Origin: Diacronema lutheri
Taxonomy: Eukaryota > Haptophyta > Pavlovophyceae > Pavlovales > Pavlovaceae
NCBI GenBank assembly: GCA_019448385.1
Contig: JAGTXO010000028.1
Coordinates: forward strand, 248,001-312,000
DNA: 64,000 nt
Direction: 5' to 3'
Shown: one piece after another, positions 17,029 to 38,030 of the stretch
Layout: each line of letters opens with the position of its first letter
How positions within the stretch are numbered: position 1 is the first letter of the stretch
Made by a program: the position numbers and the translations under genes
The notes under the pieces: model-generated
What the model was told of the DNA's origin: nothing
What the model saw: only the letters and a program-made list of their open reading frames with translations
Databases searched by the model: none

Positions 17029-19068
17029 ATGGCCGGCGTGAAGGTGTACTCGTGCTACTTGCTGCGCTCATGCGGCTCGGAGGGGCGCGGGCGCACGTAT
17101 ATCGGCTTCACGGTGAATCCCCTTCGCCGGTTGCGCCAGCACAACGGCGAGATCAAGGGCGGCGCGCGCCGCACCTCGCGCTGGAAGCCGTGGGAGCTCG
17201 TGCTCGTCGTGCACGGCTTCTCGAACAAGATCATCGCGCTCCAGTTCGAGTACGCGTGGCAGCACCCGGAGCGCTCGCGGCTGCTCCGGCAGGCGTTTGG
17301 CGAGCACGTGAAGCGGCGCGGCGCCACCTTGCTTCCTGCCAAGATGACCGTCCTCCTCCTCGCGCTCACGACCGTCCCGTTCAGCTCGCAGCCGCTCGGC
17401 ATCCATCTCTTCGACCCTGCGGCCGGGCAGCGACAATTCGACTCGCGCGAGCACGCGCGACTGCTCGCCGGCGAGCTGCACTTGCCAGGCATCCCGCTGC
17501 ACATGCTCGCGCGCCTCACACGCGGCGACGCCTCCGCGTGCCCCGAGCTGAGCCGCGCAGCCGCCGATCGCTCAGACGACGACGACGACGACGACGACGA
17601 CGACAACGACGACGACGAAGGCGGTGACGGGACGGCTGCCGTCGGCGGCGTGCGAGGCGACGGCAACGGCGTCGACGTGCGGGGCGCCGACGAGCGCGCG
17701 AGAGCAGTCGAGTCGCACGCGCGCTCGAAGCGCGAGGCGCCCGTCGGCGCGCGCGGAGCGCGGGCGCACGCGATGGCGCACGCCGTGCGGCCAACGGCGG
17801 GCGCGTGCGGCGCGGCGTGCGCACTGTGCCGCGCCGAGATTGCTCGCGCGCACGTCGCGTGCGAATGCGGGATGCGCGCGCACCCTGTCTGCCTCGCGAC
17901 GCGCTTCACCGCCAGTGGCGACTCGAACCATCTCATCCCGACTGGAGGCTTCTGTCCGATGTGCGCAGCGCACGTGTATTGGGCGGACGCCGTGCGCCGC
18001 GGGCGGCTGCGAGCGCAGGCGGGCGAGTGCGCGCGCGCGCGCGCCGCGCACGCGCGCGTGGAGCGTGGCACGTCGCCTGCTCGTGCGCCCGACACGCGCA
18101 CGGCAGCGGCCATGGACGGCTTCGGCTTGGAGGCCGACTCGCGCGCGGCCGAGTCGGGCGCGAGCGACGAGCGCATGGTCTCTTCTGGCCTCGCGGCTGA
18201 CTCGAGCGAGAGCGAGGGCGGTGCGGTCTCTTCTGGCCTCGCGGCTGACTCGAGCGAGAGCGAGGGCGGTGCGGTCGACTTTGACCTTGCTGATGATTCG
18301 AGCGCGAGCGAGCTTGGCGGCGGCGCGTTCACGGAATGCGCGCGCGCATGCTCTCCGCCGGCCGCGCCTGGCCTGTCGCCGTGCGTGCGGGTGGGCGCTG
18401 GCTTTAGCGGGCGCGGTCGGGCAGCGGAGCCCGGCGCGCCGCTAGCCGATATGGCGCCTGGTGCTCGGCGCACGGCCGCTGCGCTGCGGGGTAGGCTGCG
18501 CGCGGAGGCGTGCGGCAGCCAGCGCGGCAAAACGTCGGGCTGTGCGTCCGGCAGCGCGTCGGACACGCCACCGGACCCAATGTCGGACTCCAGCCTGGAG
18601 CGCGCCACGCGCCACGCGCGACGGCGTGCGGACGGCGGCGCGCTCGCCGCGAAGCCGACGCGCAGCGGTGCGCCGCGTCGCACATACGCGCGCGACGGAC
18701 GCGCGCCCTCTGCCGACGCGGATGACGACGACGACGAGGCGGTGGCCTGCCTGACGGAGGTGGCGCACGGGGTTGGGTCGAGCGCGTGGTGCGACCTGCA
18801 GTCTTTGGCCGCGGGCCTCGTTGAGCGGACGAGCGCAGCGGGCGGTGTGTGCCCGCAGAGCGTGCCGCGATCCAACTCGTCCTCGCGCTGCAGCAGCCCG
18901 GCGCCGGCGGCGAGCAATAGCCAGCAGCAGCGCGCCGACCAGGCCGAGTCGGCGTGCACGTCACCCGCGCCGGTGCGCATGCTCGCGGCGCAGGCCGCGC
19001 GCGGCGTGCAAGCGGGGGCCTCGCTGGAAGAAGCCATCGTGCTGTGCAGCGATGGCGAGGACGGCTGA
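17029..19068 (+). CDS. SLX1: SLX1-type structure-specific endonuclease (GIY-YIG + RING)
   Basis: 679 residues from ATG 17029 ([12 protein letters not shown]). The open frame extends upstream but is antisense to the CPBP gene. Residues 5-85 form a GIY-YIG nuclease: Y-S-C-Y-L-L, T-Y-I-G-F-T, the catalytic Arg in [10 protein letters not shown] and the catalytic Glu in F-E-Y-A-W-Q-H. Residues ~265-325 hold the SLX1 C-terminal RING/PHD-like finger (C-A-L-C ... C-E-C ... H-P-V-C ... C-P-M-C). SLX1 with SLX4 resolves branched DNA in the nucleus. Unusual for the family: a run of about ten Asp plus acidic residues (17574-17620) between nuclease and finger, and a ~350-residue low-complexity tail with a 48-bp internal duplication (18178-18273). 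Confidence 0.9.
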
Positions 19069-19527
19069 ACGCCATACTGGCTGCCAGTCTCAAAAACGGC
19101 GGCTGAGTTCTACAGGGCTGTCGTATAGATGGTCAAGCCAAATCCGATCAGGGGCACGATCGCGCCCCGAGTGCAGCGCGGGCCGTTCGGAAGGACGTCC
19201 TTGTGAGGGAGCTCTTCGCGTTTGGCGAGCGGGGGAGCACGACGCGCAGCGTTGCTGCGGCGGCGTGCGGGCGGCGAGCAGCGGTCGGGCTGCTCGCGAC
19301 GAGGCCGGAGCAGACGGCGCCGTGGCCGCCGGCGCAGGTGACGCGCGCCGACGAGCCGTAGCGAGCGTCCGTGATCCGCACGGCGGTTGGAGCGGGCCGG
19401 CTGGTGCGGCGCGCTCGGCCACGGGTGGCGGCGTGCACGGTCGTGCCGCGCGCGGCACGCGTCGCCAGCCGCGCGCGACCTGGGCAGAGCCCGCAAAGCG
19501 TCGACCGCTGCGCGGCTCGGCCGTGCG
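19069..19527 (-). other. 3' region of the Fanzor gene, candidate guide-RNA/element-end region
   Basis: It lies between the SLX1 stop and the Fanzor stop (both 3' ends). It contains a perfect palindrome AAGGACGTCCTT (19191-19202) and a GGGGC...GCCCC stem-loop (19151-19168), then the AT-richer sequence 19105-19145. In TnpB/Fanzor loci the guide RNA is transcribed from the 3' end of the nuclease gene and its downstream flank, so this is where one would be expected here. The RNA itself is inferred, not seen. A short minus-strand frame ending at 19110 (…VPLIGFGLTIYTTAL) could instead be an alternative 3' exon with a hydrophobic tail. Confidence 0.35.
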
Positions 19528-22260
19528 TCAACGCCGGCCGCGCTTCGGCCCGCGCGCGCTGCCGCCGCCGGCACTGGCGCTGGCAGCTCCGCGGGCGGGG
19601 GTGCGGGCGCGAGAGCCGCCGCCGCCACCGCCGCCGCGCCCGCCGCCGTCGTCGCCACCGCCGTCGCCGCCGCCGCCTCCCCCGCCGTCATCGTCGTCGT
19701 CGCCGCCGCCGCCTCCGTCGCCGTCGCCGTCGCCGTCGCCCTCGCCGCCGCCGCCGTCGCCGCTGCCATCGTCGTCGTCGTCGTCGTCGCCCTCGTCGTC
19801 GCCCTCGTCGTCGCCGTCGCACTCGTCGTCGCAGTCGTCGCCCTCGCCGTGCACCATGCGCTCCTCACGCTCCCACACCTCGCCGCGCGCCCACCAGGCG
19901 AGCACGAGGGCAAAGCGCTCAGGCGTCGACGTGGTGTCGCGCCCGGCCGCGTGCGCCGCCATGTCGTGCACGTCGTAGAAGATGTTGCGCGCGGCGTTGT
20001 AGTCGCGGTGCACGGGCTTCTTGCCGCCGTTGCACGCCGGGCAGATGACGAGCGCGTGCACCGTGCGCGTGCCGCCCTTTGCCACGGGCAGGCGCGGGTT
20101 CTGCGCGAGCTCCGCGCCGCAGCGCTGCAGCCTGCCGCCCTTGGCGAGCCGCGGCATCGAGCAGTGCATCGACGTGTACGGCTCGGGCACGAAGACGGCC
20201 GCGACGCCGCGCCGCCGCAGCTCGCGCAGCAGCCCCACCTGGAAGGCGGGCGGCGCGCCCTTGGGCTGCGCGCCCTTGTGGTCGCGCAGCCACTTGCCCA
20301 CGCACACGAGCAGCCGGTCGCGCGTCACGCCGTCGACACAGTGCGCCGCGATGAGCGCCTCGGCGACGCGCGCCGCGTTGGACCGCCCGCCGCTGTCGCG
20401 CCGCCAGCGCTCCTTCCGGCGCGCCGGCGCGTCGTACACGTGCTCGGCGGCGCGCTCGCGCACCCGCGCGCTCTCGCGGTGGAAGGCGTGGAACTCGCCC
20501 TCGCCGAGCACCTTGGCGCTGTGCGCCTCGCCAAGCCGCGCCTCGTCCGCCTCCACGCTGAACTCCTCGCCGCGCCCGTCCTTGCGCACGCGCCGCCGCG
20601 CCGCGTTGGTCTTGGCCGTCTCGCGCGCAAAGCCCGCGGCGCGCGCGCGCGCGCGCTGCGTGAACTGCCGCCAGACGGCCGCCCGCCCGACGTGCGCAGA
20701 GTAGGTGGTGATGTTGCCCATGTTCGGGTCGGCCGCGACGACGACCGCCGCCTCGACGTCGATCGCCCGCCGCAGCTCGGAGCCGAGCGCGACGGCGATG
20801 CGCCCGTCCGGCCGGCGCCAGCGGTGCAGGACGCCCGAGCCGCCGGCCGGCGCCTGCGCCTTCGGCACGAGGACGGTCCCGACGGCGTGCACGGCGACGC
20901 CATCTGTCACCACCGACTTGACGGGCTGCCGGCCCGGGAGCGGCACGCGCGGCAGCGGCGCGAGGCCAACCCACGAGCGCCGCGCGTGCCACGGCAGATC
21001 GGCCGGCGGCCGCTCGCGCCCGGCGTAGTCGAAGACGCGGTTGGAGATGTCGAAGCGCGTCGCAAAGACCGCGTACCTGACGCGCACGTCCGACATCGGC
21101 GGGGTGTTGCCGTTTGTGCCTGTCCACTTGATCGGCTCGCCATCGTGGTCGCGCAGGTCCAGCGCCTTGAGCCGCGCGCGCAGCTCCTTGCGCTCGTCAT
21201 CCGAAAGCGTCACCCAGATGGCGCTCGCGGCGAGGCGCACGTTGCGCGGCACCTGCGCGCAGCGCGCGGCGCGCGAGCGCGCGGGCGCGTGACCAACCTG
21301 GCCGCGGGGCGGCGCGCACGGCGGCGGCGCGCGCGCTTGGGCGCTCGGCGGCGGCAGCGGCAGCCACGCCTCGCGCGCACATTGTGCGTGCGCAGCGGCG
21401 CCACATTGTACCGCGGCGGCCGTCCGGTCAGCTGCGTGTGGATGTGCGCGAGCCGGCAGAGCAGCGCCTGCCCCTCGGCCACGTGCTGCAGGGTGCGGAT
21501 CTGCATGAGGAAGTAGCGCGTCGTGTGCCGGTCGTAGTTCCACCTTTTCGTGGGCGTGCACTTGTAGTCGATCTTGTGGAGGACCATGTCGGGCAGGTGG
21601 CGGTCGAGCGCGGCGGGGCAGCCGACGCGCGCGCCCTCCACGTCGCCGCGCAGCAGCCGCTCGCACAGCTCGCGCACGCGCGCGTTTCGCTGCATCTCGG
21701 GCAGCGCGACGAGCGCCTCGTCGCGCTCGACTGCCGCGCGGACGACGTCGCGGAGCAGCCCGTTCACGACGCGCGATGGATGCATCAGGCACGCGGTGGA
21801 CACCTGCGTCGCCTCCGCCTCGAGGATCTCCGTGAGGCCCACCGCGCAGACGGGCTGGACGCCCTCGGCCATCTCGCCGACGGCGCGCGCCGTCGCCGCC
21901 TTGGTCTGCGCGGCGGCTTGCTCGGCGGGCTTGCCTCGGGGCGCTGCACCGTACGTGCTCTCGTCCTTGTGCCAGCCGATGGCCGAGAAGATCGCACGGA
22001 CGGTTCCCTTGTCCATCGTGGTCGACGTGTGCACGCTGGTCGACGGGCCGCCCGACGCCGCGCCGACGGCCTGCGCGCTCGCCACCGCAGCCTCGTCGCG
22101 CACCACCTTGTTGATGACGCGGTACGCCTGTGTCGTGAGCCTGTGCACGGCCGCCGCGATGCGCCGCAGCTCCTTCCGCGCACCGGGCTGCGCCGTCACC
22201 GCCTGCGGCCCCGCGTTGAGCGTCGAGCGCTTGACCACGAAGCCCGGGAGCACGCTGACG
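19528..22260 (-). other. Fanzor (eukaryotic TnpB-like RNA-guided nuclease) module
   Basis: C-terminal ~860 residues of the giant frame. An N-terminal helical domain (22260-21381) ends in YNVAPLRTHN. A 128-bp intron follows, then VPRNVRLAAS and the RuvC core. RuvC-I Asp is in A-A-D-P-N-M-G-N (20716-20742). The Glu of the Fanzor-type R-II motif is in V-P-E-P-Y-T-S (about 20167-20195). RuvC-III Asp is in H-R-D-Y-N-A-A-R-N-I (19981-20013). C-P-A-C (about 20035) forms half of the inserted zinc ribbon; the first half reads H-C-S-M-P, so its second Cys is displaced. An acidic Asp/Gly tail (19560-19860) ends the protein. Fanzors cut DNA guided by an RNA from the 3' end of their own locus and occur in diverse eukaryotic transposons and large viruses. 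All three catalytic acids are kept, so activity is plausible. Confidence 0.85.
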
Positions 22261-25200
22261 CGCGTGCGCGCCGTCGCGCCGCCGGCGGCGCGCGCGCTCG
22301 GCGCAGCGGGCTCGTCCACGCGCGCGCGCTCGACGCCGCGCGCGCGGGGAACGCTCGGCGCGCGCGCGCCCGCGGCGTCGCGCGCGCTCGCGGCGGCACC
22401 CGCCGCGGCGCGCTTGCCCGCGGCGCCCGACTCGCCGTGCGCGCGAAGCGGCGCCGACGCCAATGCCGACGCCGCGCCCGCGCCGCCGCTGCCGCTGCCC
22501 GATACGCCCGCGCGCCGCTTCTGCTCGTCGCGCGTCTTGCGGAACTGGGCGACGAGGTCGCTGCTCACGTTGGCCTCAGGCTCCCACGTGTCGGCGCTCT
22601 CGTCGTAGCCCCGCCACCTGATCCGGAACTGGAACGTCACCTTCTTGCCCGCCTTGCGGCGCTCGTCGACGACCGCCTCGACCTCGTACGTGCGCGCCTC
22701 CTCGTCGACGCTCGCGCCCGCCGCGCTCGCGCCCGTGTCCGGCCACCCAGCGACCGTGCCGCCCAGCCTCTCGGCGGCCGCGCGCAGCTGCCGCTCGCGC
22801 TGGGCGGCCGCGGCGCCTCGCGCGACCAGCGCGGGCAGCATGCCCGCGCCGCCCGCGAGGCCGTGCGCGCCGACGCTGGCGGTCATCAGCGCGTCGAGGC
22901 ACGCGAACGTTGCGAGCGCACGCGCGCCATCGTCGCCGCCGCGCGGCTGCGAGCGCACGACGGGCGATGGCCGCGGCTCCCCCTCGGCCGCGAGCAGCGG
23001 CCAGATCGCACTGGCCAGCGCGACGGCATGCGCGCCGACCGCGACGGCCACGTCCGCGTCGAGCGGCGCAAAGTCGTAGCGCACGAGCGCGGCCGGGCGC
23101 GAGTCGTCCGTCGGCCGGTCGGCGACGAGCAGCCCGACCGGGCGCGGCGGCTCGCCGGACGGCGCGGCGACGGGCACGCAGAGGAGCACGACGAGCAGGC
23201 GCGGCGTGCCGCCGAGCAGCGCGCGCGCGGCATCCGCCCCGTCGGCTCCGCCGCGCGCGGCCGCGGCGAGCAGCTCGGCCGCGCGCGTCGGGCCCAGCGC
23301 CGTGCGCGCGTCCTTGCGCGCGCGTGCGCGGGCCGTGTACGCGGCGCAGGCGTCGTCGAGCACCGCCGCGCTGGGCGCGGTGCCAGTCGTCGCCCACGCG
23401 CGCAGCGCGTCGCGCACCCGCGTGACGATCGCCTGGTCGACCGCCGCCTCGCCGGCAGCGTGCGCCGGCGCGCACGCCGGCGGTGCGGCGGCAGGCGCGA
23501 GCGCGGGCGCGCCGTCGGCGCCGTCAACGCCGACGGCGCCGTCGGCGCGCCGCCACGCGAGCTTCGCCTCGATCTGCTGCCGGACGGCGTGGCAGTGCCG
23601 GTCGATGCCGCGCGCGTCGTCGAGCGCGGCCAGCGCGTCCTCAGCGGCGGGACGGCCGCTCGCGTCCGCGACGGCCTGCAGGCAGAGCAGCGCGGCCGCA
23701 CGCGCGTTGCACGCGCTCTGCGGCTCGGGCGCGAGCGCGAGCTCGAGCTCGAGCGGCGACGCGCCTCGCGCCGCGGCGATCGCGTCCATCAGCACGTCCA
23801 ACCGCTGCACCAGCGCCCTGTGCGCGTCGCGCGGCGCGCCCGTCGACGGCGCGCGCGAGCGCGTCGCCAGGAGCCCGAGCGCGCGCGCCGGCGCGCCCGC
23901 CGGCGTGTGCAGCACGAGCAGCGCCGCGCCCGCCAAGCTCGCGTTGCGCGTGACGAGCGCGAAGATGCGCGTCGCCTCGTGCGCGCCCACCGACGCCCAG
24001 ATCGCAGCGCGATCGGCGTCCGTCTGCGCGTCGCACAGGTCGCGCACGTCGTCCGGCGCGAGCAGCGCGCCGCCGCCGGCGGAGCGCGCGACGATCGCCC
24101 GCGCCTCCGCCACGAAGACGGCCTGCGGCAGGTCGGCGTGGCGCGCGTCGACGATGGCGCGCGTCGCGTGCACGCCGAGCTCCACGCCGCGGTAGAAGGC
24201 GCGCGCGTTGGCCGCGCGCGCGTGCGCCGGCCGTCCGTCCGCGTTGCGCCTCGCGCGCGCCTGCTTGCTCGTGCGCGCGAGGCCGTCGCGTGGCGGTGGC
24301 GGCAGCGTGGCGAGGAAGCGCGCGGCGGGCGGCGGCGCGCGCACGCCGCGCTGCCGCCGTGCGATGGCCGCGAGCCGCCGGCCCGCCGCGCTGCCGCCCG
24401 CGCCGACGTGCTGCCGGCGGCCGAGCGCCGCCGGTGGCGGCGGCGGCGGCGGCGCGGCGGCGGGCGGCGGCGCGACGGCGGGCGGCGGCGCGGCGGCGGG
24501 CGGCGGCGCGGCGGTGGGCGGCGGCGCGGCGGCGGGCGGCGGCGCGGCGGCGGGCGGCAGCGGCGGCGGCGCGGCGGCGACGGCAGCACCAGTCGGCTTG
24601 TCCGCCCACGCACCCGAGACTCTGTCCCAGACCTTGCCCCATGGCGCGCGCCCACGCGGCCGCGCGAACTGCCCCGGCTCGAGCGCCTGGCCGCGCTTGG
24701 CGGCGGCGGCGGCGGCAGGGGGCGGGCGGCCGGCGCGCCAGTCGAAGACAGGTGCAACCGTGGCGGCAGGCGCCGAGTGCCGCGCGTCGGTCACAGAGCG
24801 CGTGGTGCGCGCGGCGACCGTGGCACGCCTGGCGGGCGGGCGGTGAGCAGCGCCCGCCGGCGCGCCGGCGGGCGCGGCCGCCTCGAGCCCGGCGGAGGCG
24901 CCGCGCTTGCGCTTGCGCGTGCCGCCGCGCGTGCGCCTGCGCGCGCGCCCGCCGCGCGCCCGTTCGGCCTGCGCGTCGCCAGCCGCGTCGCCGGCCGCGT
25001 CGCCGCGCCGCACGTAGACGACCGCGAACGCCTCCTCGCCGGTCCCGTCGACGCCGCCGCGCGCGCGGCGCAGGACCGACCGCCACTGCAGCCGCCGCGC
25101 GCGGCCGGGCTCGCACGCAAACCAGCGCCCACCGCGCCTGACGACGGCCACAAAGTCGTCGTCGCGCCGCCCGCGCCGGCGCGTGCGCAGCAGCACGCAC

Positions 25201-28200
25201 TGCACGTCGAGCCAGCCCTCGTGCCAGTCGGCCGTGCTGGGGGCGACGCGAATCGACTGCGGGAGCTCGACGCCAAAGCCGGCGAGGCGCACGATGTGCG
25301 CGACGATGACGCTCGAAATGGCGGGGGCGCTCGACGGGTCGCCCGCTGCAGCGAGCACCGCCCCGCCCCAGTGCTCACGCGTGACGCAATCCGCGTCCTC
25401 GACGTGCACGTGCGCCACGCTCGCGCCGAGCTGGTGCAGCAACGCGCAGATGTCGGCGTCGACCGTCCTCTCCTCCTCGGCCGCCTCGGCCGTGCCGCGG
25501 GCGGCGGCGTCGCCTGCCGGCTGCCCGAGGTACGCGATCGCCCGCTCGACGGCCGCGCGCTCCGCACGCGCTGCGCTGTCGATCGCCGCATTGCCGACGG
25601 GCGCGCGCAGCGCCGCGATCGCGTCTTGCAACGCCGTCGCGTCGCCCGTCGCCGCCGCCGCCGTCACCGCCGCCGCGCTCGCGGTGCCGTGCGCGACGGC
25701 GTGCAGCGCGGCGGCGCGCGCGGCGGGGATGCGCCCGTCCAGCGCGAGCACGAGCGGCGGCCCGGCCGGCGTCTGCTGCCGCCGGTGCCGCCGGCTCGCA
25801 GCCGGGTGGTCGGCGCGCGCGCGCTCGAGCCGCGCGCGCCGCTCGACGACGCGCGCCCAGAAGGCCTGCACCCTCGGCTGCGCGAATGCAAGCCAGCCGG
25901 CGCCGCGCGTCACGACGTGCACGACGATCCGGTCCTCGTGCCTGAGGTACTGCACGTAGAGCGCTTTGCTCACGCCGAGGACGTGCATGCCGAGCTGCAG
26001 CTGATCGCGGTGCGGCTGCGGCGGCCCGTCCTCGTGCGCCGTGGCGCCCGCCTTGGTGAGCGTCTTCACCTCGACGAGGACCTGCTCGTTGTTTTCGGGG
26101 AGGATGGCGAGCCCGTCCGGCGAGAAGGCGAACGGCGCGCTCTTGTCGTGCGGGTCCGCACGCACCATCGGCAGGTTGCACACGACGGTGATGCCGTACG
26201 CGGCCGCCAGCTTGCGCAGCGCGACGGCCTCGCCGAGGATGCCCGCGGTCGTCGCCTTGGTCCGCACCTCGCGCCGCCGCCGGTGCACGTACTCGTCGGT
26301 GAGCGTCTCGTGCGCGACGCCGGCGTTGTCGTTCACGACGTCGCCAACCTTGCTGCCCGTGACCTCCTCCCATCGCTCGTCGTGCCAGCGCGGGCTGCGC
26401 TGCGCGGGCGCGCCCGCGCCGACGGCGTCGAGCACGCGGCGCAGCGCTGTGCCGTCGGGCGCAGCAGGCACGCGCGCGCGGTCCTGGGCCTCGCGAGCGT
26501 CGAGGACGCGGCCCGTAGTGGAATCTTGGGGTAGGTCGAGCTTGCTCGCCTCGCCGTAGCGGCTCTCCAGCTGGCGCGGTGCGTCGGCAGGGCCGCCGTC
26601 CGTGCGCGCACCCGACGCGCCCGCCAGTGCACGCGGCGCAGCGTCCGAGGCGCCCGCCGCGCCCGCGCCGCCGCCAATCGCGCCAGCGCACGCGCGCGCC
26701 GCGACCTGCGGACGGCCAGCCGCAGGGACCTCGTCCGCTCGGCCGGCCGCTGCGTCGGCCGTCCGCTTGGCCACCTCGCGCACGTCTCCGAGCGCGAGCG
26801 TGGCTGGCGCCGTCCAGCTCCCGTTGCGTTTGTCCCAACATTTGAGCAGCCCGCCAAGGAAGGGCGTGCCCGTCGGGCGGTCCTCGGGCACCTCCGCCAG
26901 GATCGCGTCGACGCGCAGCGCGGCCGCCACATCGCAGAACGCGCGCGCGGCGCGCGCCATCCGCTCGGCGCGCGCGCCGCCGTCGTCCGCCGCGCGGCGG
27001 ATGGCGTGACTCACGTGCGCGACGCGGAGCGAGACGACGGCGTGCGCCGGCGCGTCGGCGCCCGTGCCGAGCGTGTGCCGCCGGATGGCCAGCTGCCCAT
27101 CGCCCATGCGCGGCGGCAGCGACGCGCACGCCGCGACGGTCGTCGTGCCGGCCGCGCTGTCGCACAGCCAGCTCGCCTCGCCGCCGCCCGCAAACTCAAA
27201 GGTCGCGAAGCCCTCGCGGCCGAAAAGCGCGACGAAGTGGTCGAGCACCGCCTTGTTGATCGCGCGCGCCGCCGGCCGCGTCGATGCGCCGCGGGCAGCG
27301 CCACCCGCCGCGCCGCGCGCATCGCTGCACGTCGCAGGGCAGGTGCAGCCGGACGCGCGCACGCCGTCCGACCGCGTCCGCGGCAGCTCGAGCTCGCGCA
27401 CCTTGGGGCAGAACCAGAGCGGGTTGGACGCCTCGAGGCACAGCACGACGAGCCGCCCGTCCGTGCCGGCCAGCGCGCGCGCGTCGCGCAGCAGCTCGAC
27501 GGCGAGCTCGGACGTCGCCGCGTGCACCGCCGGCTCGCCCGTCGCGCGGTCGGGCGGGAAGAGGCCGCCGCCGACGAGCGGGCTGGGGCAGCGGCCGAGC
27601 ATCACGAGAAGCGGCGGCGGCGGCGTCTGCGGCGCCTGCTGCCCGACCGCAGCCGCCGTCAGCCCGGCCAGGTCGGAGCTCGTGCGGAGGGCCTTGAGCG
27701 CGACGCGCGAGCCGGTGCCCGCCTGCTCGGAAAACGTGGCGAGCATGGCGCACGTGCTCGCCCTCGCGCCGCACTGCCAGCTGACGCGCGCGAGGAGGCC
27801 TTCCAGCGTGTCGTTTTCGCGCGGCCGCGTGACCGCGTCGAGCGCCGCCGGGCCGAGCTGGAGGCTGCCGGGCGTGACGCACAGCACCGCCTCGTGGTAG
27901 GCGCGCAGCAGCTCCCTCGGCAGCTGCTCGGCGGGCGTCGCCGCCTGCCCGCCCACCCACCGTGCACCGTGGCCGCCGTCGCCCGCGCCCGCGAGCCGGA
28001 CCGCCGGCCCGCCCGTGATCGCCGAGGTCGGTGGCGTGCCGAGCGCGTCGACGAGCGCGCGCACGGGCGCGACACGCCTGCGCGCAGCGTCCGCGCCGAC
28101 GGCGAGCGCGGCGATCTGAGCGCCGTCCCATGCGCGCTCCCTCGCGTCGTCCCGCGCGGCCGCCGGCGCGGCGCCCGGCCGCGCGCCGGGCGGCACCGCG

Positions 28201-30101
28201 CACGCCGCCGCGACGACCTCCGCGCGCGCGCCGGCGGCGTCGGGCGCGTGCAGCTGCGCGAGCGCGCCAAAGAGCGCGGCGGCCGAGCGGTAGCGGCCGT
28301 GCGCCGCGACGAGCGCGTAGAGCACGCGCAGCGCGGCCACGCCCGCCTGGTCGGGCGCGTCGCCAGCGATTTGCTCGACCTCCCACGTGCGCGTGGGCGG
28401 CGGGCTGCCGTCGGCCGGGTCCGGACGCAGCGCCCACGCGCGCTCGACGATCGCGTTGAACACGCCGTGCGCGGCGCCCTCGTCAAACTCGGCGGCGCCC
28501 GCCGCGTGCGCGCACCACCCGTGCACGCGCGACGTGGGCGCGTCCACGGCGCGCTGCACGACGAGCACCGCCGGCCGGTCGACGCAGCCGAGGCTCACCG
28601 CCGCGTGCTTGCCCTCGAGCAGCGCCGCCGCCGCAGCCTCGACCAAGGCGTCATCAGGCGCGTCGCCGACGACGACGGCACAGCCGTCGCCGTACTCGGC
28701 CTGCATCGCGGCGACGCACGACGCGACAAAGTCGCCGCCCGCGGCCGCCGCGTGTCGCGCCGCCAGCATCCGGCGCGCGATGGCAAGCCAGACGTACTCG
28801 GCCGGCGCGCGCGCGGCGCGCGCGCGAGGCGCGCCGGCCGCGCCGCGTGCGCCCGCGCGTGCGCCTCCAGCGGCCGCAACGGCCGAGGCGGCTGGAGCGG
28901 CGGTGAGCGTGCGCCGCGCGCGCTTCGCCGGCCGCGTGATGGGCGATGCACCCGCCATCGCACCGCCCGCAGCAGCCGGTGCGGCCGCCACAGCGCCCGC
29001 CGCAACGCCACTCGTCACGACGCCCGTGGCGGGCGGCGCGGCGGCGGACGTGGCCGCCTCGACGGGCGTCGCGCAACTACCGCCAGCGGTCGCGGACGCG
29101 CCCGGCGACGCGTCGGCGAGGAGGTGGCGCAGCACGCCGCGCGCGAGCGCGACTCGCACGGCGAGCGTCAGCGCGCGCAGGCGGTCGGAAGGCGAGGCGT
29201 CGCGCTCGGCGTCGGCGGACGTGGCGGCAGCAGGCGGGGCGGCGGGCGGCACGGCGGCGGGCTGGGCGGCCGCCGGCGCAACCTCGTCGGCCTTGGCCAG
29301 CCAGACGAGCCCGGCGACTGCGAGCACGACGCTGTACGCGCCGACATCGTCACCCGCAACGCGCGCCAGCCGGGCGTGGGCGTCGGCCTCGGACACGGCG
29401 ACGTGGAAGAGCACGTCGTCGCGGGCAGCTTGCTCGGCAAACTGACGCAGCTGCTTGGCCATCGTCACGCCGGCGACGCACGCCTCGCCCGCCTCTGCCT
29501 CGACCTGCTCGTCCTGGCCGATGGCGGACGCGCCGGCCTCGGCGCCAGCGTCGAGTGTCCGGCGGCGCTCGAGGGCGAAGCCACGCACACAGACGCGCTG
29601 GAGGCCGCCGAGCGCGCCCGCCTTCTCGTGCAGCGCGCACGACAGCTCGACCACCGAGTCCACGCGCCTCGCGGCGGCGCCCCCCCGCTCGCCGCGCGTG
29701 GCCGCGCGCACGACGAACACCGTGAATTGCGCGCGCTTCGCCGCGCGCGCCGACGCGCACGCGTGCTTCAGGAGCCGGCAAAGCGCGGGCCTTTGCGCCG
29801 CTGCGCCCCGCGTGCACAGCAGCAGTTGGCCGCGCTCGTCGCCCAGCTCCTGCTCGACGGCGGCCTCGAGCGCGTCGTCCGTCAAATCGCCGTGCTCCGT
29901 CGAGGCGAGCGCGCGCGCAGCCGCGAGCGCCAGCTCGCCTGCGCCCGCGCGCCGCCGGCGGCGCGCACCGGCGGGCGCGTGCGGCGCCGACGCGTGTGAC
30001 GACGCCGCCGCGTCCGCGCGCGCACACGCGGCGCGCAACGCCTCACGCGCCGAGGCGGCCGCGCGCGCCCTGGGCGCGAGCTTCAAGAACGTGCGCGCGG
30101 C

Positions 30102-30177
<76 letters not shown>

Positions 30178-33100
30178 TCGCCCGCGTCGCCGGCCGGCGG
30201 CGGCGGTGGCGGCGGTGGCGGCGCGGCCACGGCGGCGGCAGCAGCGGCGGCGGCGGCGGTGGCGGCGGCGGCGGCGCCCAGCGCGGGCGGCGGCGGCGTG
30301 GCGGCGGCGGTGGCGGCGGCGGTGACGCCAGCGGCGGCCTTGGCGCCGCGCGTCTGCGGCGGCGTTTCGGCGCCATCGGGGCTGCCCCCGCCGCGCACCG
30401 CGCTCGTGACCGCGCAGACGCCGCCCGGCGCACGATCGCTGGCCGCGCCGGTCAGCGCGACGCGGAGGCGCTCGCCGACAGCGTACATGTCCGCCACGCT
30501 GAACGTGCGCGGCGCGGACGAGCAGCCCGCCGCGGCGAGCGCGTCGTTGAGCGCGCCCACTATCGCGAGGCCGCACGTCGCGCCACGCTGCGCCGCCTCG
30601 TTGAGCAGCAGCGCGCGGCGCACGCGCGAAATGTCGAGACCCGCCGCGTGCAGCGTGGCAGTTATCGCCTTGGCGAGCATGAGCGCCTGCCTGCAGGGCG
30701 ACGCGAGCGTGTCGACGAGCACCGCGTCGTAGCGATGCTCGCCCGCGCGCGCGACGCGCACAAGGCGCAACGCGGTGAAATGGCCGGAGGCGAGCTGCGC
30801 GCCGTCGTCACCGCCCGCGCCGCCGCGCTCGTCCGACGGGCTCCACACGCCGATGACAGCCTGCGTTGTCGCCTCGCTGCGCAGGCGGTGCAGCAGCGCG
30901 GCGCGCTCGGCGTCGTCCTGAAACACCGCGGGTTGCGCGGCGAGCGGCACGTGGCAGACATGCCCGCCGCCGGCCTGCCCGTGCACGCGCAGCACGACCT
31001 CGCAGCACGCGTCGACGGTTGAGGCGAGCATGTCGCCGCTGGCGATGCGCTCCACCTCTGCCTGCGGGAGGCCGGCGCTCGCGGCGGCGGCGGCCAGCCG
31101 GCGCGCAGCCGCGTCGCCCGCCCACGCAAGCAGCGCCGAGTTGGCGGGTTGGAGGGGAAGCTCAAGGGCGGCTGGTTCGGTGGCGGTAGCCTCGTTGGCA
31201 ACGGGCACGTTGGCGGTGCGCGCGTTGGCGGCGGGCGCGGCGGCGATGGCTGGTGGGGCGGAAGACGCGCCCGCGGCGGCGGGCGCGGACGCGGCAGCGG
31301 CAGCGGCTAGTGGCGCGGGGAAAACGCCGTCGGAGGCGGCCTGGAGGGCGGCAGCGGCAGCGGCTAGTGGAGCGGGGCAAAAGGCGTCGGAGGCGGCCTG
31401 GAGGGCGGCAGCGGCAGCGACTAGTGGGGCGGGGAAAACGCCGTCGGAGGCGGCCTGGAGGGCGGCAGCGGCAGCGGCTAGTGGGGCGGGGAAAACGCCG
31501 TCGGAGGCGGCCTGGAGGGTGGCAGCGGCAGCGGCTAGTGGCGCGGGGAAAACGCCGGTGGTGGCAGGCGCGGAGGCGAATGCAGGAGCAACTAGTGGGG
31601 CGGGAAAATCGGCGGCAGGCGCGAAGGCGGATGCAGGAGCGGCTAGTGGGGCGGAAGACACGCCCGCGGCGGCAGGCGCGGACGCGACAGCGGGAGCGGC
31701 TAGTGGCGCGGGGAAAACGCCGGTGGTGGCAGGCGCGGAGGCGAATGCAGGAGCAACTAGTGGGGCGGGGAAAACGCTGTCGGAGGCGGCCTGGAGGGCG
31801 GCAGCGGCAGCGGCTAGTGGAGCGGGGAAAACGCCGTCGGAGGCGGCCTGGAGGGCGGCAGCGGCAGCGGCTAGTGGAGCGGGGCAAAAGGCGTCGGAGG
31901 CGGCCTGGAGGGCGGCAGCGGCAGCGACTAGTGGGGCGGGGAAAACGCCGTCGGAGGCGGCCTGGAGGGCGGCAGCGGCAGCGACTAGTGGGGCGGGGAA
32001 AACGCCGTCGGAGGCGGCCTGGAGGGCGGCAGCGGCAGCGGCTAGTGGCGCGGGGAAAACGCCGGTGGTGGCAGGCGCGGAGGCGAATGCAGGAGCAACT
32101 AGTGGGGCGGGAAAATCGGCGGCAGGCGCGAAGGCGGATGCAGGAGCGGCTAGTGGGGCGGAAGACACGCCCGCGGCGGCAGGCGCGGACGCGACAGCGG
32201 GAGCGGCTAGTGGCGCGGGGAAAACGCCGGTGGTGGCAGGCGCGGAGGCGAATGCAGGAGCAACTAGTGGGGCGGGGAAAACGCTGTCGGAGGCGGCCTG
32301 GAGGGCGGCAGCGGCAGCGGCTAGTGGAGCGGGGAAAACGCCGTCGGAGGCGGCCTGGAGGGCGGCAGCGGCAGCGGCTAGTGGAGCGGGGGAAAAGGCG
32401 TCGGAGGCGGCCTGGAAGGCGGCAGCGGCAGCGACTAGTGGGGCGGGGAAAACGCCGTCGGAGGCGGCCTGGAGGGCGGCAGCGGCAGCGACTAGTGGGG
32501 CGGAAGACACGCCCGCGGCGGCAGGCGCGGACGCGACAGCGGGAGCGGCTAGTGGCGCGGGGAAAACGCCGGTGGTGGCAGGCGCGGAGGCGAATGCAGG
32601 AGCAACTAGTGGGGCGGGAAAATCGGCGGCAGGCGCGAAGGCGGATGCAGGAGCGGCTAGTGCGGCGGGGAAAACACCGTCGGCGGCAGGCGCGAAGGCG
32701 ACAGCAGCAGTGGCTAGTGGAGCGGAGGCGCAGGGCCACGCGCGCGCCAGCCGTGCAAGCCCAAGCCGCGCGCGAGCGACGCACGCGCCGATGGCCGAGG
32801 CGGCGGCGCAGGCCACGACGTGGCATGGCACCGGTGTGGCCAGCCGCTCGCGGGTGTGCACGTCGAGCCGCGCCCCACGCCAAGAACGGCGGCGCGCTGA
32901 ACGGAGGCGCACGACCCCGATCGGTCCGCCCGCGCACGCGCGCGCCGGCTCAGTGTGGCCAACGCGCGCCGCTATGCAAGGCGCGCGCGCGATAACGGCG
33001 GCTGTCGGCCGTGGCGTGCGCGTGGCGGCGCCGCGGCGACGGGCGCGGCACACGAGCCGCTCGGGTGCGCCGCCGCCGCGCGGCACGATGTCGAGCAGCA

Positions 33101-36100
33101 CGGTCACGCCGCGCGCGCGCGCGACCGCCGTGCACGCGAGCCGCACGGGCAGCGGCGGCCCGTCCGGGCGCGCGAGCGCCGCCACCTCGGCGTCGGTGAA
33201 GCTGTGCAGCTCGCGGCGCGCGCGCGCGAACGCGGCAATGTCCGCGCGCAGCTCCGCGTCCGTGCCGAGCGCAACGCGCGCGTGCACGGGGAGCGACGCG
33301 CGCAGCGCGTGGAGCACGCCGCCGCGCGCGCCGCGCGGCGCCGGCGCGCGCTCGCGCTCAGCGCGCGCGGCGCGCGTGAGCTCGCGCACCGCGCGCTCGA
33401 GATTGCGCGGCGCGGCCGCGACGGGAGGGCTAGGTGCGCGCGCGCGCCGGTTGTAGCGCGGCCGCGCCGAGTTGAGGGGCGGCGGACGCGGTGCGTACGC
33501 CGCGGCGCGGCCCGCGCGCCAAAAGGCCGGCGGCGGGCGCAGCTCCGTCGCGTCGACCGCGGCCGCGAGCGCGCCGAGCGCGGCGTCGCTGTCGCCCGCC
33601 GCGTCGGCCGCGTCGACGAGCACGAAGAGCGCGCCGAGCGCGCGCGACGCGGCCGCCTGCGCGGCGGTGGGGCGGGCGCAGGCAGCGACGCATGCGGCCG
33701 CCATGCCACGCGCCGCGGCGAACGCCGGTGACGTGACGGCCGCGCCGATGGCAACGGCGGCGGCGGCGACGGTGGAGGCGGCAGCGCCGGCTATGGAGGT
33801 GGCAGCGGCGGCGGCGCTTGCCATCGCGCGGCGCGCGAGACGCGAGGCGCCACCGACCGCCGCCGCCGCAGCGCGCGCTGCGCGCGCGCCGGTGGCGCGC
33901 ATCGTCGCCGCGCCAGGCGCCGCCGCGCCGATGCCGCCGGCGCCCGCGCCGTCGCCGCTCTCGGCCGTGCAGGGCTCCGATGACGGGCCCGGCGTGCGCT
34001 GGCGCGTGATGCGCGCGCCGAGGCGCGCGCTCCGCGCCGCGCGGCCGGCGACGTCGAGGACGCGCCGTGCGCGCGCCGCGCACAGGCCACGCGCGCGCGG
34101 CGGCGCACCGACAGGCGCCGAGCGCCGCGGCGCGCACGCCGGCGCGTCGCTGTCGGGTTGCGCAGCGCGCGCGCGGGAACTCGGCGCGGCGTGTGCGGGC
34201 GGCGGGCGCGCGCCCGCGCGGCGCAGAGGCGCGAGGCGCCGGCCGCAGACGAGGCGTGTGCGCGGCCAGGACGGTGAGGGCCGCAGGGCGCCGTCGACGT
34301 CGCGCATCGGCGGGCTGCGAGCGCGCCGCGCAGCCGTGCGGCGCGCGCAAGGCGCTCGGCGGCGCGCGCGCCGCACGGCGCGCGCGGCGGCGCGCACGCC
34401 AGCGACGGCTGCGGCCACGCCGCGCGCCAACACGGCCGCGGCGTGCGCCATCGCACCGAGCACGGCGCGTGGCGCGCCGAGCAAGCGCAGCAAGCGCGAC
34501 GCCGTCGCGCGCGCCGGCGCACCGTGTGCAGGGGCCTCGCCAGCGCCAGCACCGACGCCGCCATCGCCGCAGCCGCAGGTGGCGTCGCCGCCGCCGCAGG
34601 CGTCGCGACGGACGCCGCCGCCGCCGAAACAATCGCCGCACACGTCGCCGCCGACGTTGCCACCCCAGCCGCCGTTGCCTGCGTAGGTGGCTGCGGCGCG
34701 TGCGTGCGGGAGGCGTGCCGTGCGCCGCGCATCACACGGGCTGCGCGACGCGAGCGACGCCGCCGGGGGCCCCGCTGCGCCAGGCGCGCCGTGCGCGCCA
34801 GCCTCGCCGGCCTCGCCGGCGCGCGGTCGCGCGCTCGCCTCGACGTGGCCGCCTCCGCCGCCATCGCCGCCGTCGAACCGGGCGGCGGAGGGCTGCCGCT
34901 CGAACCGCTCGTCGGCGTCGGCCGCCACCGCCGCCTCGCGCTCCGCCGCCGCATCGGCCGCACGGCGCGCGTGGCGGAGCGCGCGGCCGCCGTCCGCTGC
35001 GCGGCGTGGTGGCGCGGGCGCGGCCTTCGGCGCGCGCGGCCTCTCGGCGCGCTCGCGGAGCACGGCGAGCGGCGTGCCCGTGGCGACGCTCGTGCAGACG
35101 CGCTGCAAGGCGGCGCTTACGCACGCGTGGACGACGCGCGCCGTCCGCTTGTCGGCGGCGCGCGCGGCGCGGCGCGCGGCCTTGGCGGCGGCCTTTTTGG
35201 CGCGCCTCTGCTCCGCCTGCTCCGACAGCGCGCGCGCCTGGCGCTCGGCTGCGAGCGCTTCCTCGGGTGAAACGGTCGGCCTCGGCGGCCGCGCGCGCGC
35301 GCTGCGACGCTGCGCGCTGCGGCGGTCGGACGGCGGCTGCCGCGGCGGCGAGGACGGCGGGCGCAAGCTCGGCGTGGGCGACCAATCACCGCTGACGGTT
35401 GCGAGCGGCGCAAACGGGTTGTCGTCCCCGCACCCCGCGGCGTGCGACAGTGCACGCGGCGTCGGGCGCCGGCCGACCGCTGGCGGGCCCCACTCGGACG
35501 GCAGCTCCGAGGGCGAGCGCGCCGTCGGCGCCGCGCGTTCCGCGGCCGGCGGCGCCTCCCGGTCCAGCGCCGCCTGCTCTCTCGCCGCGGCCTGCTCGTC
35601 ACCCTCCGGCACGCCACGCGGCGCGAGCACCGCGGTGGCGCAGCGCGTCGCGTTGAGCAACGCCGCCTCCATCTGCCGCACGTTGGCCTTGGCGCACGCC
35701 ACACCCTGTCTCGCCCGGCGCAGCGCCTCGTGCGCGCGGCGCACATCCGCGTCGGCATCTTCGCGCATGCCAAAGTGCGCCTGTTGCAGCCGCAAGTCCG
35801 CAGGGCGCCCCTGCGCGCGAGGGGCACGGGCGCGGCGGCGCGCAGGTGACGGAGCTGGCGCGCCGTTCTGCGCTGCGCGCACGCCAATCGACGGGCGCGC
35901 GCGCGGCGGGGCGCGCGCGCGCGCGCGCGCTGCCTACCCAGCCGCCGGCCGGCTCGCGCGAGCGCGCCAGCTGCTCCGCCGCCTCGGCGTCGAGCACGCG
36001 CTGCTGCGCCTCCTCCTCGCCCAGTGCAGCGAGGTGCAGCCGGCGGGCTGCCTTGCGGCAGTTGCCCTCCGCCTTGCCCACGGCCTTGCGCGCCGCGTCG

Positions 36101-37233
36101 ACGGGGTCGTCGTTGGCTCTGGCGCGCCTGCGCTTGCCCTTGTCGGCGGGCGGCGGCTCGGCGCGCTGCAGCGTGCCGAGCGCGTCGTCGGCTCCGCGCG
36201 CGGCCGCCCGCGGGCGGCGGGCCCCAAAAAGCGCACCGGTCGCCGTGCGCGCCGCGCAAGCAACGACCAGCGCTGACATGCCGGCGAAGACCGCACCGCC
36301 CAGCGCCACGGTTGCCACGATGCGCAGCGTCCCGTGCGCAAGCCGCGCTGCCTCCGCCGCTTTGGCGGCCTCGCGCGCGCGCGCATCGGCGGCTCTCATC
36401 TCGTGCAGCAGCCCGGCCGCGCCGCTCGCGCCGTCGCGGCCGCGCGCGAGCTCGCACAGCACCGCCGCCGCGTGCCGCGTGGGCTCGCGCGCGAGCAGCT
36501 GCGCGCTGCCGTCGGGGCGCAGCTTCTCAACGAACTCGACAAACGTCGCGTCGCGCCAGAGGGACTTGCGGAAGGCCCTGTGCACCGCCCCCTCTTGCTT
36601 GCGCATCCGCCGTGCCGCCCGCCTGCCGTCGCGCGCGTGCGCGTGCGCGGCCGCGTCGAATCCCGCGACGCCGCGCTGCGCGTCGCGCGCGGCCGACGAC
36701 GGCGCCGCCGCGCTGCCCGCCAAGGGCGCCGCAGCGGCGACGCACGCGTGCGGAGCGACGGGATCGCCGGCGGCCGGCGGCTCGGCGCGCTGCGGCGTGC
36801 CGTTTGCTCCGCGCGCGGCCGTCCCGGGGGAGATGGCCGCGATGGCGCCACCAGCCGCGCCGTGCGCCAGCCACGCGCATAGGCTGCCGACGAGCTCGCC
36901 GAGACCCCCGACGGTCGCCGCGGCGGCGAGTGCGCCGGGCTTGCCGGCCGACAGCGGCTCGCGAGCGTCGTCGTCGCAGCCGCCGGCACCCGTCTTGGCG
37001 AGTGCGTCGCGCTCGCCCTCGACGCCCGCCACGACCGCCGCCCCTCCGTCGTCCGCCGCGCCGGCCGCGCGCGCGGCCGGGCGCAGAGGAGGCGTGCCGG
37101 TGCAGCCGTCGCCGCTCGTCTTCGCCGTTTCCTCCACCTTGATCGCTTCGTCGCTACCTGCGCCATCTCCGACGCCGGGGCCCTTGGTCACGCTTGCCGC
37201 CATGGGCATCGAGCCGGTCGTCTCCTGCGCCAT
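19528..37233 (-). CDS. Giant multidomain protein: Ulp1-like protease, YqaJ exonuclease, chromodomain, Fanzor nuclease
   Basis: Inferred exons (minus strand): 37233-35938, 35810-21381 and 21252-19528, joined in phase 0 by introns of 127 and 128 bp; about 5,816 residues. The ATG at 37233 (MAQETTGS) lies ~110 bp below a TATAAAT box. N-terminal exon: disordered, one TM helix (about residues 300-335) and a coiled coil. Exon 2: low-complexity basic/Ala-rich part, 57-bp-repeat tract (residues ~1460-1985), Ulp1-like domain (~1990-2230), poly-Ala, an Arg/Ala-rich region with degenerate protease-like segments, YqaJ exonuclease (~3566-3736), Pro-rich linker, chromodomain (~4806-4861), Fanzor N-terminal domain. 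Exon 3: RuvC core. All recognised domains share one frame, which argues for a single product. Further introns, or several genes sharing the frame, remain possible, since antisense frames are also open over several kb. Probably part of a mobile element. Confidence 0.6.
21253..21380 (-). other. Intron within the Fanzor module
   Basis: On the minus strand the donor is CAAT|GTGCGC at 21380 and the acceptor TGCGCGCAG|GTGCCG at 21253. Removal (128 bp, phase 0) joins the frame encoding the Fanzor N-terminal domain to the frame encoding its RuvC core. Without splicing the upstream frame runs into arginine-rich nonsense and stops at 21210. Confidence 0.75.
22510..22695 (-). other. Chromodomain fused upstream of Fanzor
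   Basis: It encodes Y-E-V-E-A-V-V-D-E-R ... F-R-I-R-W-R-G-Y ... D-T-W-E-P, the full chromodomain signature. All three aromatic cage positions (Tyr, Trp, Tyr/Trp) are in place. Chromodomains bind methylated histone H3 tails. In chromovirus integrases and some transposases they steer insertion to heterochromatin. Here the domain lies ~100 residues before the Fanzor N-terminal domain, in the same frame. Confidence 0.88.
25895..26410 (-). other. YqaJ/lambda-exonuclease-type nuclease domain
   Basis: Frame of the giant protein. The order is R-S-P-R-W-H-D-E-R-W at the start, G-I-L-G-E-A-V-A-L-R-K-L-A, then F-S-P-D-G-L-A and V-L-V-E-V-K-T-L (the D...E-x-K catalytic core of PD-(D/E)XK nucleases), and the conserved Gln motif H-R-D-Q-L-Q-L-G-M-H-V-L-G. 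This layout is that of YqaJ viral recombinases/alkaline exonucleases, which trim DNA ends for strand-annealing recombination. Catalytic residues are intact. Confidence 0.85.
30108..30178 (-). repeat. GCC triplet run (poly-Ala)
   Basis: About 24 uninterrupted GGC/GCC triplets encoding poly-alanine in the giant frame, just after the Ulp1-like domain. Likely a length-variable microsatellite. Confidence 0.85.
30440..31140 (-). other. Ulp1/C48-like cysteine protease domain
   Basis: In the giant frame: G-H-F-T-A-L (His, ~30780), Y-D-A-V-L-V-D-T-L (Asp, ~30715) and A-A-Q-R-G-A-T-C-G-L-A (Gln and Cys, ~30570-30600), in the order and spacing of Ulp1/adenain-type proteases. Such domains process viral polyproteins, or remove SUMO/ubiquitin, and recur in several eukaryotic DNA transposon families. 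All triad residues are present. Self-processing of the giant product is an attractive but untested idea. Confidence 0.65.
31290..32725 (-). repeat. 57-bp tandem repeat tract with 507-bp higher-order unit
   Basis: About 25 units of ~45-57 bp, each beginning at [AG]CTAGTGG. They encode (on the minus strand) 19-residue A-P-L-A-A-A-A-A-L-Q-A-A-S-D-G-V-F-P and shorter variants. A multi-unit block starting at 31541 recurs 507 bp later at 32048 nearly unchanged, so segmental duplication followed unit expansion. The frame is preserved throughout, consistent with translation as a linker before the Ulp1-like domain. Confidence 0.88.
35811..35937 (-). other. Intron 1 of the giant gene
   Basis: Minus-strand donor GGCTGG|GTAGGC at 35937; acceptor GCGCGCAG|GGGCGC at 35811. 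It is phase 0, 127 bp. It links the 5' exon (coiled-coil end …PAGGW) to GRPADLRLQQ, which continues the helical character. Confidence 0.65.
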
Positions 37234-37337
37234 CGCGCGTGCTGGTCGTCCGCGTCGGTCGTCCTCGCGGGCGGATTGGCAGACGCCTTTTGATCCGCTG
37301 CTTTTGAAAGTGTGATAAGACGTCGCTCTTGGCCTCA

Positions 37338-37350
37338 TAAATTTATAGAA
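37338..37350 (-). promoter_or_regulatory. TATA-like box of the giant gene
   Basis: On the minus strand CTATAAATTTATG, with TATAAAT at 37341-37347, about 110 bp upstream of the ATG at 37233. It sits in one of the few AT-rich patches of this GC-rich block. Confidence 0.5.
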
Positions 37351-37518
37351 GGCCCGTGGTGCGCCCCACGGCGAGCGATGTACCACTGCGCTCGTGGAAT
37401 GCATCGCGCTCGTCGCGGCGCTGGGCGTGCCGGACGCGGCCGCCCTAGCGGCTGTTTAAGCGGGAGTTTCTGATGGGAGATTGTCCCCAGCGACCTTATC
37501 GACCGACCCCCCAACCAA

Positions 37519-37546
37519 CCCCCCCCCCCCCCCCCCCCCCCCCCCC
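37519..37546 (+). repeat. Poly-C run (28)
   Basis: Uninterrupted run of 28 C between the giant gene promoter and the decayed exon copy. Homopolymer length may be inexact for technical reasons. Confidence 0.85.
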
Positions 37547-37599
37547 GCCCCCGCACCAGCCACGCCTGCTCCGCCGTGCGGCAGCGGCCGCGTCGACGT

Positions 37600-38030
37600 C
37601 GCGTGCGCCGCACGCCACGTCGCCCGCCGAGGGCGACACGGCGACACCGCGCTCGCACGGCGCGACGAGCTTGTCGGCAGGCGGCAACACGCGCGCGTCG
37701 CCGGCGCTGCCGTCGGCCTCCTTCGCGCCGAGTGCGCCGCCGTTCCGGCCGACGACGACGAGGCCGCCGACGACGACGACGCCGACGACGGCCCGGCTAG
37801 GCCGGCGTGGCTGGCGCGCGGCGCGCCCACGACGCCCGCCACGGCCGACGCCCCTGCCGTCGTCCGTCGCGCCGGCCGCGCGCGCTTCCGCGCGCGAGGC
37901 GACGGAGGCGGCGGCCGTGACGCGCCGGTGTGGCCGTGGCCGCTCATCGCCGCCGCGTCCACCTTCTCGTTCGCTTCAACGCCGCCTGCACCACTCCCGA
38001 CGTTGCCGCGCTGAGTCACGCTTGCCGCCG
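37600..38030 (-). pseudogene. Decayed partial copy of the giant gene's 5' exon
   Basis: Minus-strand translation from about 38030 (MPAAASVTQ, then G-S-G-A-G-G-V-E-A) parallels the giant protein's MPMAASVTK, G-D-G-A-G-S-D-E-A. It keeps matching through the segment with T-G-[AT], P-A-R and V-A-G-V-[EV]-G. The copy then loses the frame and runs into the poly-C tract. It shows that the element's 5' end was duplicated locally, or that a second element copy was truncated here. Confidence 0.6.

Follow-up and report, generated by a model that had tools for sequence, protein, structure and literature searches.

A giant, high-copy mobile element of the haptophyte Diacronema lutheri with a predicted Fanzor, exonuclease and chromodomain gene

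Results

A very long coding frame on the minus strand

The window discussed here is the whole 64,000-bp stretch C3:248001-312000 of the Diacronema lutheri assembly, whose 43.49 Mb in 103 contigs were the search space. Between positions 21210 and 35933, its minus strand holds a frame that is stop-free over 4,907 codons, counted stop to stop. The frame and its proposed extensions contain the following features, in window coordinates:

35938-37233, minus: proposed exon 1 of the window copy, 432 codons (coding pattern in the exon frame; homology to the copy on C43 ends at 37215)
35781-35937, minus: proposed phase-0 GT-AG intron, 157 bp (read from the sequence and from the frame switch of the coding pattern)
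21381-35780, minus: proposed exon 2, 4,800 codons of the 4,907-codon frame (open frame, coding pattern, simulations)
31275-32725, minus: 57-bp (19-codon) in-frame minisatellite inside the giant frame, far shorter in the C43 copy
30402-31250, minus: candidate cysteine-protease-like (Ulp1-like) region (H-D-Q-C residue order at about 30531-30788)
25977-26387, minus: predicted RecE/YqaJ-type exonuclease domain (PHROG 434, TIGR03033 and Pfam YqaJ matches)
22536-22688, minus: predicted chromodomain (PF00385, E 6e-12, over cut-off)
21253-21380, minus: proposed phase-0 GT-AG intron, 128 bp (same evidence as for the other intron)
19528-21252, minus: proposed exon 3, Fanzor C-terminal half, 574 codons (coding pattern, TNB domain; stop at 19528-19530)

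The initial annotation of this DNA had claimed a very long, real coding frame, and this is borne out. A GC-only estimate gives P of about 1e-21 for such a frame being open by chance, and the longest ORF obtained across 200 order-1 Markov simulations, all frames considered, had 1,602 codons (mean 820), far short of 4,907. A coding-type GC pattern, i.e., GC-rich third and GC-poor second codon positions scored in half-kb bins, follows this frame throughout 21.5-31.0 kb (19/19 bins); a loss of coding signal between the domains, named beforehand as the observation that would speak against a joined frame, is not seen there. The pattern is absent over the minisatellite (0/4 bins, 31.0-33.0 kb), is weaker at 33-36 kb (5/6 bins), and shifts to the frames of the other two proposed exons at 36-37 kb and 19.5-21.5 kb. 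It should be noted that the stretch is 79% GC and that on its plus strand, too, ORFs reach 1,787 codons, which would suit a frame open merely through GC-richness, with domains that are chance matches or scattered exons. We give this explanation almost no credence, however: periodicity and simulation contradict it, and three domains lie in order on one strand. The giant open frame is real and not an accident of GC content.

Phase-0 introns at both ends and a product of about 5,800 residues had also been proposed. GT-AG introns are possible at both places, and the three-exon model of the window copy, with its predicted introns, comes to 432 + 4,800 + 574 = 5,806 codons; the N-terminus of this copy is, on the other hand, rearranged (see below). 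Because the 4,907-codon frame has no stop, an upstream gene in it could end only by splicing out.

Domains of the giant gene

Profile searches support a chromodomain, a RecE/YqaJ-type exonuclease and a TnpB/Fanzor nuclease as predicted domains. The claim that all domains share one frame holds for the chromodomain and the exonuclease, but not for the catalytic part of the Fanzor (19981-20220), which lies in the frame of exon 3 and is presumably joined to the giant frame through a proposed intron only. The exonuclease matches the RecE-like PHROG 434 (E 4.6e-17), NCBIfam TIGR03033 (E 3.8e-7, below its cut-off) and Pfam YqaJ (E 0.034 and 0.0027, both below cut-off).

For the Fanzor/TnpB catalytic part, Pfam TNB (PF07282) gives E 4e-6 and 27.3 bits against a cut-off of 26.3, NCBIfam TnpB E 0.023, and PHROGs no match below E 0.1. 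Alignment of the exon to a second Fanzor family of D. lutheri gives 29% over 112 residues (E 6e-6), and a profile of both families matches Cas12f1 in the PDB with E 9e-5, compared with E 0.27 for the giant-element Fanzor alone. The assignment also draws on the RuvC D-E-D and Zn-ribbon cysteine motif, which we take to mark Fanzor/TnpB nucleases: the E, the last D and the Zn-ribbon-type cysteine positions align between the two families, and the first RuvC D was read by eye, outside that alignment. The second family, found at C11:803083 (L118), C1:154701 (L119) and other sites and about 29% identical to the giant-element Fanzor, scores higher for TNB and has open frames that reach 1,779 codons.

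The built-in Ulp1-type protease of the initial annotation is best described as a candidate, recognised by a residue pattern, the H-D-Q-C order that we take to be the Ulp1/C48 motif. Searches of Pfam and PHROGs returned no family for this region, those of NCBIfam and the PDB nothing relevant, and its predicted fold is unusable (mean pLDDT 36.9). Repeated protease domains had been suspected by eye; self-comparison gave nothing convincing. The idea of a self-cleaving polyprotein finds no support here, since the frame contains no confirmed protease.

A giant mobile element with fixed ends

The gene lies within a repeat that has fixed ends, diverse insertion sites and a high copy number, and that is thus a giant mobile element. 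Its remaining features in the window are these:

19122-45638, no strand assigned: whole mobile element, window copy, 26.5 kb (aligned copies and terminal patterns)
19122-19150, plus: left terminus (CG)TATAGATGG... (alignment of copies; conserved preceding G)
19122-19530, minus: stretch between the Fanzor stop and the element end, where, judging by position, a guide RNA would be expected
37216-39219, no strand assigned: sequence unlike two fuller copies (the match to L120 ends at 37215, that to L029 starts at 39220)
39900-42230, minus: PIF1-like helicase gene, broken up over several frames in the window copy (PF05970, E 1e-24 and 4e-14, in two frames)
45613-45638, plus: right terminus ...CCGTATATA (end set from the C5 and C19 copies)

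The view that the exonuclease and the Fanzor belong to a large mobile element is upheld by copies with defined ends: terminal patterns with at most 3 mismatches occur genome-wide 224 times for the left end and 239 times for the right, and reversed controls give 0. The genome search for further copies and their ends, which had been suggested as a check, thus revealed a high-copy repeat; in size, the window copy represents one of its less common forms. With a 601-bp probe, the 40 best-scored of 226 candidates were all 100% identical; a left end near 19122 is reached by 19 of 20 fetched copies, L020 being the exception; and all 150 scored loci (the best 150 of 236 candidates) show at least 98% identity in the exonuclease region. 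Pairing of ends, which drew on 100 listed left and 55 listed right ends, gave 31 pairs, with 14 elements of about 31.0 kb, 7 of about 21.5 kb, 5 of about 29.2 kb, 2 of 26.5 kb (the window and C5 copies), and one each of 26.0, 12.65 and 35.9 kb. Internally deleted copies, such as that of 12.65 kb on C28, keep both ends. The copies number well over a hundred and, by our estimate, make up about 4 Mb, near one-tenth of the genome, if 150 of them average 28 kb; truncated copies would reduce this share.

The two ends are not inverted copies of each other. A moderate DNA hairpin is seen at the right end (z -2.2 and -1.75 for the two strands), and no notable one at the left. The Fanzor stop (19528-19530, minus) and the element end at 19122 are about 400 bp apart, and the predicted RNA fold of 19122-19421 is slightly better than that of shuffled sequences (z -1.66; 10 of 200 shuffles as good). 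Rfam at gathering thresholds gave no match in the window and three loci.

Several other features of the window deserve mention. Inside the element, an 887-bp palindromic block with TAGGGTG repeats (42754-43640) is matched by the C5 copy in both orientations. Directly adjoining the left end is an SLX1-like GIY-YIG endonuclease gene, apparently of the host (16717-19068, plus), and 13691-14917 holds two minisatellites that are almost perfect (7 units of 48 bp and 18 of 45 bp). A further very long open frame of 3,702 codons, with only weak Pfam matches, lies outside the element (48340-59448, minus).

The window copy compared with fuller copies

Compared with fuller copies, the window copy is a rearranged form: the ubiquitin-protease gene is missing, the sequence upstream of 37,215 is different, and PIF1 is split over frames. 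The C43 copy (31 kb, L120) matches the window no further than 37215, and its upstream exon is open and coding for at least 650 further codons; its gene model would have at least about 6,000-6,050 codons. Because this homology ends at 37215, the Met at 37233 lies in rearranged sequence, and a start at 37233 is not ancestral. The stretch 37216-39219 takes the place of the extra 5' coding sequence and the USP gene of the fuller copies.

The USP-type gene scores over the PF00443 cut-off in fuller copies (L029, E 5e-9; L072, E 7e-15), is open for 498 codons in 86 of 86 scored loci (the best 86 of 238 candidates), and is missing from the window copy. The neighbouring helicase relic noted earlier was correctly recognised as such, with further PIF1 pieces read in a third frame; at its position, many other copies have a frame of 686 codons, against 509 in the window copy (best 150 of 414 candidates).

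Of 150 scored copies, 105 have a giant frame of 4,000 codons or more, and 45 a shorter one. The frame measures 4,490-4,525 codons in 65 copies, less than 3,000 in 23, and at least 4,900 in 11, including the window and C5 copies; a stop within the exonuclease region occurs in 2 of the 150. In the C43 copy, the frame has 4,513 codons, and the minisatellite is short with the frame still open. The C19 variant (21.6 kb), which has a USP of its own (L072) with PDB matches to USP46/USP12, has the N-terminal half of the frame replaced and keeps the part below 31.25 kb; therefore, the halves can part.

Such separability, together with a coding pattern that disappears in the 57-bp repeat and is weak between 33 and 36 kb, would be expected if the open stretch consisted of separate genes or splice forms sharing a frame, with no giant fused protein. 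We consider this unlikely in view of 4,907 codons without a stop, a coding pattern that is continuous from 21.5 to 31.0 kb, and the C43 copy, whose frame is open across a short repeat.

Selection on the frame

Exon indels that are common to at least two copies or present in the C19 variant are multiples of 3 in 7 of 7 cases, and helicase-region indels in the same comparison in 3 of 8. Several of the frame-keeping exon indels fall within short repeats, and the length of most single-copy indels is not divisible by 3. Substitutions between subfamilies, counted with the repeat positions 24401-24749 and 30051-30399 omitted, comprise 64 replacement and 23 silent changes at 21.4-24.4 and 24.75-30.05 kb (expected silent, 28%), and 8 replacement and 1 silent in the Fanzor exon. 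Thus, neither the Fanzor exon nor most of the frame shows purifying selection between subfamilies. At 30.4-31.05 kb, the protease-like region, the counts are 40 replacement and 33 silent (33/73; expected silent, 27%), a result that rests on the C19 variant and indicates probable constraint. Private substitutions of single copies look unconstrained. The evidence on recent function of the giant gene is, in our opinion, mixed.

Insertion sites

On the left, G precedes TATAG in 42 of 42 distinct flanks, all of them exact matches to a 28-base pattern, which excludes non-exact left ends such as L015 and L019. On the right, the next base is G in 35 of 41 distinct flanks (C in 4, A in 2), at a background G frequency of 0.35 (P about 3e-11); in the window copy, it is A. 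Other flank positions are near flat, except that the second base out on the left is C in 20 of 42. Seventeen of 18 flank pairs are without a target duplication, having no repeat longer than 4 bp, and one copy has a repeat of 13 bp. The diversity of the flanks argues against guides choosing new sites.

Judged by eye, a dispersed repeat with the motif ACTAACG holds at least 6 of the 41 flanks on the right and 4 of the 42 on the left, mostly at its start. The motif had been considered as a host-intron branchpoint because of its presence near several flanks; this was rejected, as it belongs to the dispersed repeat and is absent from the window. The dispersed repeat starting (TAT)ACTAACGRCGCTT has 940 exact sites of a 13-base pattern genome-wide (reversed pattern, 0), and the giant element is often located within this repeat or abutting its start, as seen in the flanks of L024, L021, L040, L046, L049, L059, L088, L090 and L097.

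In at least 10 contigs (C1, C3, C5, C6, C8, C12, C14, C32, C33 and C43), one end coincides with the left terminus to within a few bases. The idea that contigs stopping there mark chromosome ends was rejected, since PIF1 lies about 4.57-4.63 kb from the contig starts of C32, C49, C69 and C72, which suggests contig starts near the right terminus too. Contig ends at element termini are probably assembly breaks at a repeat boundary, a reading that leaves an excess of left over right ends unexplained.

Recombinases, relatives and the origin of the element

No transposase or recombinase was recognised in the element frames scanned. With Pfam, these frames, outside which lie about 3.8 kb of the 31-kb form, gave no Y1_Tnp, DDE, integrase, polymerase or capsid match. 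The profiles run genome-wide were PF00239, PF14214 and PF00589: serine recombinase (PF00239), by which an IS607 element would be recognised, has 0 matches; Helitron Rep (PF14214) has one locus, C63:35738 (L074, E 8e-23); and tyrosine recombinase (PF00589) has 16 integrase-like loci, against at least 150 element copies. One of the latter loci was read as a possible helper in trans (L115) and was rejected, as it looks like a DIRS-type retroelement.

These results bear on the possibility that the element is non-autonomous and moved in trans, and that its giant gene, once functional, is now decaying. The lack of purifying selection between subfamilies over most of the frame, the split PIF1 of the window copy, the absence of a recombinase from the frames scanned and the internally deleted copies with both ends retained all fit such a passenger. 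Yet the frame is still 4,490-4,525 codons long in 65 of 150 scored copies, subfamily-level indels preserve the frame, the protease-like region has its silent excess (33/73), and the genome contains no multi-copy serine recombinase (0) or Helitron Rep (1) that could serve as a helper. On balance, we think a decaying passenger somewhat unlikely.

In the protein database, the PIF1 piece matched its own window protein and a PIF1 helicase at E 1e-6, and the Fanzor piece gave a single match, a 99% identical record (in both cases among the best 8,000 candidates); the exonuclease piece had no match at E <=10. Large algal DNA viruses possess a gene set resembling this combination of helicase, exonuclease, proteases and Fanzor, and the element might accordingly be an endogenised large-DNA-virus or polinton-like element that kept its replication genes and lost its particle genes. 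We judge this improbable: the frames scanned, with the exception of the 3.8 kb mentioned, contain no capsid, polymerase or integrase match; two element pieces searched against viral contigs had no relative there; and fixed ends, high copy number and diverse sites are transposon-like.

Discussion

A possible mechanism of multiplication

The reading we prefer, with a probability of roughly 45%, is a giant Fanzor element that multiplies by nuclease- and exonuclease-assisted copying and whose main gene is made as one giant protein. In the gene as modelled, the exonuclease and the chromodomain precede the Fanzor nuclease on the minus strand, and the single product would have about 5,800 residues in the window copy and about 6,000 or more in that on C43. 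The element would multiply by peel-and-paste or cut-and-copy. A recombinase, unrecognised as yet or supplied in trans, would move it precisely; the Fanzor, guided by an RNA from the left end together with flanking DNA, would cut the emptied or uninserted allele; and the fused RecE-type exonuclease would resect the break, after which repair would copy the element in. The chromodomain may tether the giant protein to chromatin. The protease-like part, together with the separate USP of the fuller copies, may alter SUMO/ubiquitin control at the break rather than cleave a polyprotein. Cut-and-copy has been described for TnpB and suggested for Fanzors (PMC10432273).

A stronger version of this proposal is a new superfamily without a classical transposase of its own, in which a single giant protein unites nuclease, exonuclease and chromatin anchor for spread by RNA-guided cutting, resection and copying, and which occupies about one-tenth of the genome. 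That version is, in our opinion, doubtful. The role of Fanzors for the elements that carry them is, to our knowledge, unsettled. Here, a Fanzor is coupled with a recombination exonuclease plus a chromodomain in an apparent single gene. Because there are many near-identical copies, exact ends and a predicted Fanzor-exonuclease fusion, the cut-and-copy idea is directly testable in this culturable alga.

The D. lutheri NIVA-4/92 genome was described as 43,502,671 bp in 103 contigs with 73% GC and 22.9% repeats, LTRs making up 32.7% and LINEs 3.8% of masked bases, and the main text of that paper has no word beginning with "transpos" (PMC8379373). The giant element may explain part of the repeats that were left unnamed there. 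In the open-licence literature, our searches on transposable elements of D. lutheri, haptophyte Fanzors and giant Fanzor or Pavlovales elements found no report of the element among the papers listed, and no paper combining Fanzor and YqaJ was found; nor was any precedent for a Fanzor, an exonuclease and a chromodomain in one gene.

Comparison with known systems

Starships are very large elements with precise ends. Cryptons and Starships carry a tyrosine recombinase within the element; the 16 PF00589 loci found here are far fewer than the copies. Some KDZ and Polinton elements carry Ulp1-type proteases. The present element, whose Ulp1-like protease is a candidate, differs from them in that its scanned frames gave no DDE, integrase, polymerase or capsid match; moreover, Polintons and virus-derived elements are expected to have inverted terminal repeats, unlike the ends described above.

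Helitrons combine a Rep-helicase with insertion at A/T and a CTRR end. With them, the element shares a PIF1-type helicase and the lack of target duplication, but it contains no Rep domain, of which the whole genome has one locus, and its ends (GTATAG...CCGTATATA, mostly followed by G) are at odds with the Helitron rule. ISL2EU, of the PHIS superfamily, carries a YqaJ nuclease, and a YqaJ-type exonuclease is present here too; unlike ISL2EU/PHIS, however, our element has no DDE match in the scanned frames and lacks, in 17 of 18 flank pairs, the target duplication expected of that superfamily. A link of YqaJ with transposable elements is made in the PHIS paper (PMC4482050).

In the nuclease itself, the likeness is to Fanzor elements and to the TnpB of IS200/605 and IS607, with which the giant gene shares the TNB domain, the Zn-ribbon-type cysteines and the E and last D motifs. 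Bacterial elements have TnpB placed near the element end, and in Fanzor and TnpB elements alike the nuclease gene ends near the end of the element, as it does here. The SpuFz1 locus, at about 2 kb, has a stand-alone Fanzor (PMC10432273), whereas in D. lutheri the Fanzor would form the C-terminus of a giant gene in an element of 21-31 kb.
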